Shown: in pieces, positions 57,431 to 59,299 of the stretch
Numbering within the stretch: position 1 is the stretch's first letter
Layout: each line of letters starts with the position of its first letter
Source of the DNA: Caldimicrobium sp.
GTDB taxonomy: Bacteria > Desulfobacterota > Thermodesulfobacteria > Thermodesulfobacteriales > Thermodesulfobacteriaceae
DNA length: 64,000 nt
Assembly: GCA_009903935.1 (NCBI GenBank)
Contig: WYEG01000026.1
Span: forward strand, 1 to 64,000
Reading direction: 5' to 3'
The notes under the pieces: model-generated
Told to the model about the DNA's origin: nothing
The model's database searches: none
What the model saw: only the letters and a program-made list of their open reading frames with translations
Program-made: the position numbers and the translations under genes

Positions 57431-57475
57431 ATTATAATATAGCACATGCTTTTTATTTTACTTGACCTAAATCAA
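57431..57475 (-). promoter_or_regulatory. FNR/CRP-type regulated promoter of the ferredoxin gene
   Basis: TTGACCTAAATCAA (57462-57475, + strand) is TTGAC-N4-ATCAA, one base from the FNR palindrome TTGAT-N4-ATCAA. Minus-strand TATAAT is at 57431-57436 and there is no -35 hexamer at the right place. The box centres at about -40 to -45 from the expected start, the class II activator position. The regulator is not encoded in the window. Confidence 0.65.
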
Positions 57476-57529
57476 GCTTCAAAATGTGGAGGGAAACGGC
57501 GTTTGGCTATAAAAATAGCAATCGGAGAT

Positions 57530-57712
57530 ACGACCAGCTGGTCGTCTAATTTTTTAGGAAAACGCTCACTGAGGCTCGGGGTGACACCTCCCACTGTGGC
57601 ATCAAGAGGTACGCACTGCCAAGCGATGCCTCACTTCTTTCGGAAAGGCACCTTAGGGACGCTCCTTAGGCAAAGCCCAAGGGGTGACAAGCCACGGGGA
57701 TACTCAGGGCTA
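57530..57712. repeat. GC-rich intergenic repeat region with a perfect 16-bp palindrome
   Basis: This non-coding stretch is richer in G+C than the surrounding genes. It opens with ACGACCAGCTGGTCGT (57530-57545), a perfect palindrome, followed by segments such as GGGGTGACA repeated twice (near 57578 and 57681), resembling the dispersed repeats elsewhere in the window. A 103-codon open frame crosses it but has repeat-like composition and no Shine-Dalgarno, so it is not called as a gene. Ends of an element could not be defined. Confidence 0.5.
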
Positions 57713-57727
57713 CAAAACGATAATAGA

Positions 57728-57755
57728 TTGCCTTCCCAAATTTCAATACTATATT
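57728..57755 (+). promoter_or_regulatory. Sigma70-type promoter giving a near-leaderless moaB/mogA transcript
   Basis: TTGCCT (57728-57733) and TATATT (57750-57755), 16 apart; ATG follows seven bases after the -10, so a transcript would start at or near the start codon, and no Shine-Dalgarno is visible. Confidence 0.45.
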
Positions 57756-57762
57756 AATAAAC

Positions 57763-58266
57763 ATGAACAAACTTCACCCATCCGTTGCTATTCTTACCCT
57801 AAGCGACAAAGGTAGCCGTGGAGAAAGGGAAGACCTATCGGGGAAACTCCTTCTAAAATTCTGCCAAGCACTTAACTGGGAGGTAAAGCACTACGAAATC
57901 CTTCCCGATGAAAAGGATTTGATCGCTGAAAAGCTCATCTTTTTAGCGGACCATCTAAAGGCTGACCTAATTCTTACCACAGGTGGGACGGGCGTTCATC
58001 CTCGGGATGTAACCCCTGATGCTACCTCTCAGGTAATAGAAAAGGAAGTTCCAGGACTTGCTGAATTCATACGCTTTCTCAGCTTTCAAAGGACTCCCCT
58101 TGCAGCGCTTAGCCGAGCAAGGACTGGGATCCGCGGAGAAACTTTGATCATTAATCTTCCCGGCAGCCCAAAAGCCATAGAGGAGATCTTCCCCCACCTT
58201 ACAGAAATCATTGAACATGCCGTAAGAAAGATTAAGGGCGACACGTATGAGTGCGCAAGAGGTTAA
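57763..58266 (+). CDS. mogA: MogA/MoaB-family molybdenum cofactor protein
   Basis: 167 residues: VAILTLSDKGSRGEREDLSG at the N-terminus, TTGGTGVHPRDVTPDAT (quoted as the family loop) in the middle and NLPGSPKAIEE near the C-terminus. These proteins adenylate molybdopterin to prepare molybdate or tungstate insertion. MoaB and MogA are closely related; the length suits either. It overlaps the true start of selD by 20 bases; both support selenium/molybdenum or tungsten enzymes such as formate dehydrogenase. Confidence 0.88.
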   Translation: MNKLHPSVAILTLSDKGSRGEREDLSGKLLLKFCQALNWEVKHYEILPDEKDLIAEKLIFLADHLKADLILTTGGTGVHPRDVTPDATSQVIEKEVPGLAEFIRFLSFQRTPLAALSRARTGIRGETLIINLPGSPKAIEEIFPHLTEIIEHAVRKIKGDTYECARG

Positions 58267-59299
58267 GCTCACGCAAATGGTTAAGGCTTCGGGCTGAGCA
58301 AGCAAGCTCCCACAAGGGTTCCTTGTGGAGATACTTAAGGAGCTCCCCCTTCCCTATCACCCTGACCTTATCCAAAGCTTTGAGCATGGAGCTGATGCCG
58401 CAGTCTATCGCCTAACCCCAGATATAGCCTTAGTCTTTAGCGCAGACTTTTTTACTCCTGTAGTTGATGACCCATTTGTGTTCGGACAGATTGCGGTAGC
58501 AAACTCCCTTTCTGATATCTATGTGGCAGGAGCGAAGCCCCTTCTTGCCCTAAACCTCATAAGCTTTCCCAAGAAAGGGCTTTCACGGGAGATTTTGAAG
58601 AGGATTTTAGAAGGAGGGCTAACTAAGCTCAAGGAAGCTGAAGCTCTTTTAGTTGGGGGGCATAGCGTTGATGACCCGGAGCCTAAGTATGGACTTGCGG
58701 TAGTTGGCATAATCCATCCGGATAAGGTTATCACAAACAGGGAGGCAAAGGAAGGGGACCTCCTTTACCTTACTAAACCCTTAGGCACGGGGATCTTGGC
58801 TACAGCTTTTAAGGGTAAGCTTTTTAGCGAAAACGACCCACCTTACCGCGAGATGGTTAGCATCATGACCTCTTTGAACAAAGAGATCTCTGAAATAATG
58901 GTTAAGGTAGGCGTAAGATGCGCAACTGACATTACAGGGTTTGGGCTGCTTGGACATGCCTTGGAGATGGCTTTTGCAAGCCAGAAAAAGCTCATCATCT
59001 TCGCAAGCAAAGTCCCCTATCTTAAAAGCGCCTTAGAGTTTGCAAGGATGGGTATAATACCTGAAGGAGATTACGAAAACCTTAACTTCTGCGAAAATCT
59101 TGTAAAAATCTCAACTGAAATAAAGGACGAAATTAGGATCCTTCTTGCCGATGCTCAAACCTCAGGCGGGGTTTTGCTCTGCGTCCCAAGAGAGCTAAAA
59201 GAAAAATTTGAAAAAACTGCTATTGAGAGGGGTTTTTATTCTTTCTATCAGATAGGAGAGGTCGTTTCCGGAGCTCCTTCAATAGAGGTCTTACCTTAG
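58247..59299 (+). CDS. selD: Selenide, water dikinase containing selenocysteine
   Basis: SelD makes selenophosphate, the selenium donor for Sec-tRNA and selenouridine. Read from ATG 58247 (AAGGG upstream, 20-base overlap with mogA) the frame gives MSAQEVKLTQMVKASG, then in-frame UGA at 58295-58297 as codon 17, then ASKLPQGFL. Residue 17 and Lys20 coincide with the essential Cys17 and Lys20 of E. coli SelD, so UGA is selenocysteine. A SECIS-like hairpin follows. The remainder has the GADAAVY, DFFTPVVDDP and GHSVDDPEP motifs. Total 350 residues including Sec. An apparent GTG start at 58325 would lose the catalytic residues. Confidence 0.93.
58307..58330 (+). promoter_or_regulatory. Bacterial SECIS-like hairpin in selD
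   Basis: Starting nine bases after the UGA, CTC-C-CACAAGG and CCTTGTG-GAG form a 10-bp stem with one bulged C and a small G-U-U apical loop, the loop beginning with G as in known bacterial SECIS elements. The distance from UGA to the loop (~20 bases) fits SelB-dependent recoding. Confidence 0.8.

Follow-up and report, generated by a model that had tools for sequence, protein, structure and literature searches.

A selD gene with an in-frame UGA predicted to encode active-site selenocysteine in Caldimicrobium sp.

A UGA codon at the active site of selD

The window analysed here is a stretch of 64,000 nucleotides from Caldimicrobium sp. (GenBank assembly GCA_009903935.1, contig WYEG01000026.1, positions 1 to 64,000 of the forward strand). 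It carries selD, a gene for selenophosphate synthetase (selenide, water dikinase) with a UGA codon in frame at the position of the active-site residue. A preliminary description, made from the letters alone, had proposed that this UGA is decoded as selenocysteine (Sec) and that a hairpin resembling a selenocysteine insertion sequence (SECIS) lies downstream of it. The features of the gene are as follows, with the evidence for each in brackets; the open reading frame (ORF) listing was made with genetic code table 11.

58247..59299, + strand: selD, predicted Sec-containing selenophosphate synthetase of 350 amino acids with Sec17 (frame, TIGR00476, relatives, alignment)
58295..58297, + strand: in-frame UGA, predicted selenocysteine 17, at the active-site position that is Cys17 in E. 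coli (alignment, relatives)
58304..58306, + strand: codon of the catalytic Lys20, invariant in the family (alignment, family loci)
58310..58328, + strand: bacterial SECIS (bSECIS) hairpin (folding, family alignment, covariation, synonymous recoding; fits the published bSECIS model)
58325..58327, + strand: GTG taken as the start by the table-11 ORF caller, an internal Val codon within the 3' arm of the SECIS (ORF listing, family alignment)

Read from the ATG at 58247, the frame contains a single UGA, at 58295-58297, and is then open to a TAG at 59297-59299. When the UGA is counted as an amino acid, the product has 350 residues; it scored 334.4 bits against TIGR00476 (SelD; curated cut-off 125 bits) and covered profile positions 1-308 of 311, confirming that the frame continues into a full SelD. 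Alignment to E. coli SelD (PDB 3u0o) placed residue 17, the UGA, opposite Cys17 and Lys20 opposite Lys20, exactly where the preliminary description had put them. SelD membership is recognized by two residues (E. coli numbering), Sec or Cys at 17 and Lys at 20; both are in place here, and they are invariant in the family loci. In homologues this redox-active position holds Cys or Sec, and a UGA there is what a bacterial selenoprotein gene is expected to have. Moreover, the N-terminal extension aligned throughout with the N-termini of both Sec-SelD and Cys-SelD proteins. It had also been anticipated that gene callers would start at the GTG at 58325 and lose the active site; the table-11 ORF listing does begin at this codon, and its product is without Sec17 and Lys20.

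We examined the distribution of the codon in 60 genomes, comprising the source genome and 59 relatives. A clear SelD match was present in 55 of the relatives; 54 of these, from many genera, had exactly one in-frame TGA in SelD, and the remaining one (G058) had none. A clear match was not found in the other four of the 59, three of which (G021, G027 and G043) gave weak or partial matches only and one (G044) none. In the family alignment the UGA stands at the same codon in all aligned loci, and in loci from many phyla the codon at the active site reads TGA or encodes Cys, with Lys three residues on. In this codon listing the rows for L020, L035, L047 and L048 were off-target pattern matches and were left out; the correct TGA rows for L020, L035 and L048 came from other analyses. 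The nearest loci in the public collection came from Thermodesulfobacteriaceae and Thermodesulfobacterium, and more distant ones from Bacillota, Chloroflexota, Gemmatimonadetes and others.

One locus from a relative, L032, which covers the same region as L051 and has UGA codons at 1132 and 1546, holds a decayed, internally deleted selD copy between mog and the intact selD. This copy retains the start, the UGA and part of the hairpin, followed by an internal piece of SelD and stops.

The hairpin downstream of the UGA

In silico folding formed the stem-loop that had been described, with a 7-bp stem of CCACAAG (58310-58316) and CUUGUGG (58322-58328) enclosing the loop GGUUC (58317-58321). An optional eighth pair, G-C, reduces the loop to GUU. 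The loop starts 19 bases (GGUUC) or 20 bases (GUU) past the UGA and begins with G in both cases, in agreement with the approximately 20 bases and the G at the loop start noted previously. Published limits for bSECIS elements are a loop of 3-9 nt, a G within the first two loop positions, a spacing of 16-37 nt and a minimum free energy of -7.5 kcal/mol or lower (PMC13188914). The selD hairpin lies inside all of them, and nothing of it falls outside the consensus model. Its loop, GGUUC, differs from the AGUUY of most close relatives because codon 23 is GGG (Gly) here rather than GAG (Glu).

Since an Rfam search of the window at gathering level returned no match, the SECIS was judged by its geometry and covariation. 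When the peptide was recoded with synonymous codons, 0.54% of the recodings folded equally well and 2.8% formed the complete stem. Across 27 distinct sequences of the family, the proportion of stem cells that paired was 94.7%; it fell to 84.8% on shuffling and did not exceed 63.5% when the stem was slid. The covariation score of the stem exceeded those of all 500 shuffles and of all slid versions, with three pairs changed on both sides. The clearest covarying pair lies between the third base of Pro22, where changes are silent, and codon 27 at its second base; where the pair is A-U, residue 27 is mostly Val, and where it is G-C, Ala.

Selenocysteine machinery and alternative readings

The preliminary description had concluded that the organism decodes selenocysteine and had made this depend on the presence of selA, selB and selC. 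Our search of the genome bore this out, and the other computational checks that had been suggested were likewise favourable. The search revealed a complete selB (651 residues, 375 bits against a cut-off of 242), a tRNA-Sec with the anticodon UCA (82 bits) and a selA with an intact frame (L008; 328 bits against a cut-off of 268) that runs off the end of contig C24. The three genes expected in a bacterium that makes selenoproteins are therefore present, with selA cut by the contig end.

In further support of selenocysteine decoding, the genome contains at least two more UGA-containing selenoprotein genes, which lie about 11 kb apart on contig C16 (L128 and L133). These are fdhA, for a formate dehydrogenase alpha subunit, with an in-frame UGA in ARVUHAPSVAG, and a flpD/mvhD-type gene with an in-frame UGA in CHWUCYAA; a hairpin is predicted after the UGA in both. 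We take these UGA sites to be Sec positions from E. coli FdhF and from FrhD/MvhD, respectively. Both are listed among selenoprotein families (PMC1794560). SelU/MnmH (TIGR03167), another consumer of selenophosphate, gave no match above the cut-off of 220 bits (a weak match of 20 bits), so selenophosphate is probably used for making selenoproteins.

We consider it very probable (about 0.97) that the gene is a canonical Sec-containing selD in which the UGA at 58295 is decoded as Sec17 through the SECIS hairpin. This reading draws on the observed frame, alignment, conservation, SECIS covariation, decoding machinery and further UGA-containing genes, from which we infer the actual insertion of Sec and its use in catalysis. 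Several observations weigh against it. The hairpin is only mildly unusual on its own, with a folding z of -2.06, and stems of 7 bp or longer accompany 7.8% of all the window's TGA triplets when identical loop and spacing rules are applied. Some of the covariation accompanies a change of amino acid (Val/Ala at codon 27), and it was counted on related sequences, so the counts are not independent events. The hairpin is conserved with covariation in relatives and is weak evidence if taken alone. In addition, selA is incomplete in the assembly, where contig C24 ends inside the gene, and its 3' half was not found elsewhere in the assembly. This truncation is most simply an assembly gap, since 55 of the 60 genomes, the source genome included, have selA over the cut-off and mostly at full length.

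Three other explanations were rejected on the evidence of conservation, of known Sec positions and of the decoding machinery. The true start could be the GTG at 58325, giving a shorter SelD-like protein, with the upstream UGA merely ending a short leader frame. Gene callers would pick this codon and an AAGGG sequence lies immediately upstream of it, but the 26 residues that precede it include the motif SGUxxKLP and show conservation at the protein level in many phyla. Furthermore, many relatives have Ala or Glu at this codon, which is Val here, so it is not a conserved start, and the resulting protein would be without Sec17 and Lys20, making such a start highly improbable. A decaying selD in which the UGA arose by nonsense mutation or by sequencing error could also show a lone TGA in an otherwise open frame. 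However, a single in-frame TGA recurs across the genera of nearly all SelD-bearing relatives, always at the same codon in the aligned family loci, and the frame is otherwise intact. On both flanks of the UGA, residues are strongly conserved and third bases vary, indicating that the region behaves as coding sequence. Together with the conservation of the TGA, this pattern rules out a sequencing error or a stop codon that arose by chance, and we give decay or error even less credence than a GTG start.

We regard as equally far-fetched a general reassignment of UGA across the genome, for instance to Trp or Gly, which would likewise let UGA be read through in selD, fdhA and flpD. In these genes, however, UGA occurs only at known Sec positions, the other large ORFs read are open under table 11, and no UGA at a Trp or Gly position of a housekeeping gene turned up among the genes read. 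The presence of tRNA-Sec, SelB and SelA also argues against reassignment and for decoding of the UGA as selenocysteine.

The upstream mog gene and the biology of selD

Immediately upstream of selD lies a gene for a molybdopterin adenylyltransferase-like protein.

57763..58266, + strand: mog (ORF listing, profile match, conserved overlap)

The last 20 bases of mog overlap the start of selD at 58247. In the Thermodesulfobacteriaceae loci that were examined, the end of a mog homologue coincides with or adjoins the start of selD; the loci of the next family (L037-L041 and L044) have no mog homologue. This conserved overlap suggests that genes for molybdenum and selenium cofactors are translated in a coupled manner in Thermodesulfobacteriaceae, and translation of selD is probably coupled to that of mog. 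Coupling would make sense because the molybdenum/tungsten (Mo/W) formate dehydrogenase needs molybdopterin and, here, Sec. More tentatively, and in our view rather doubtfully, the 20-base overlap could couple molybdopterin maturation to selenium activation across the family and so keep production of the two cofactors in step for the Sec-containing Mo/W formate dehydrogenase. No gene is obvious in the intergenic region before mog (57475-57735); short stretches of this region are found again, at 72-78% identity, on contigs C9 and C5 and perhaps represent a degenerate repeat.

In the pathway we propose, the mRNA would be translated from the ATG at 58247, probably in coupling with the overlapping mog. 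At the UGA at 58295, the hairpin at 58310-58328 would recruit SelB with GTP and Sec-tRNA(UCA), which would place selenocysteine at position 17. The 350-residue SelD would then convert selenide and ATP to selenophosphate by means of Sec17 and Lys20. The selenophosphate would feed SelA, yielding the charged tRNA-Sec needed to make SelD itself and other selenoproteins, which include at least the formate dehydrogenase alpha subunit and the FlpD/MvhD-type subunit.

Sec-SelD is a standard selenoprotein (PMC1794560, PMC13188914). The protein described here resembles other bacterial Sec-SelD proteins, including those of Thermodesulfobacterium relatives, in its match to TIGR00476, in Sec at the same position, in Lys20 and in a SECIS directly after the UGA, and differs from them in sequence divergence only, with about 63-74% identity to the nearest. 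E. coli SelD, which has Cys17 (PDB 3u0o), and the SelD of PDB 2yye/2zod align over nearly the full length and share the catalytic Lys; the difference is the UGA-encoded Sec predicted here, the residue being printed as C in both PDB rows.

Taken together, a Sec-SelD with an in-frame UGA is common among anaerobic bacteria that use selenium and counts as textbook knowledge, and nothing here departs from the known picture or adds a new principle. The case recalls that table-11 gene callers truncate Sec-SelD at the active site, and the UGA-containing selD is a reliable marker of selenocysteine use by this thermophile.
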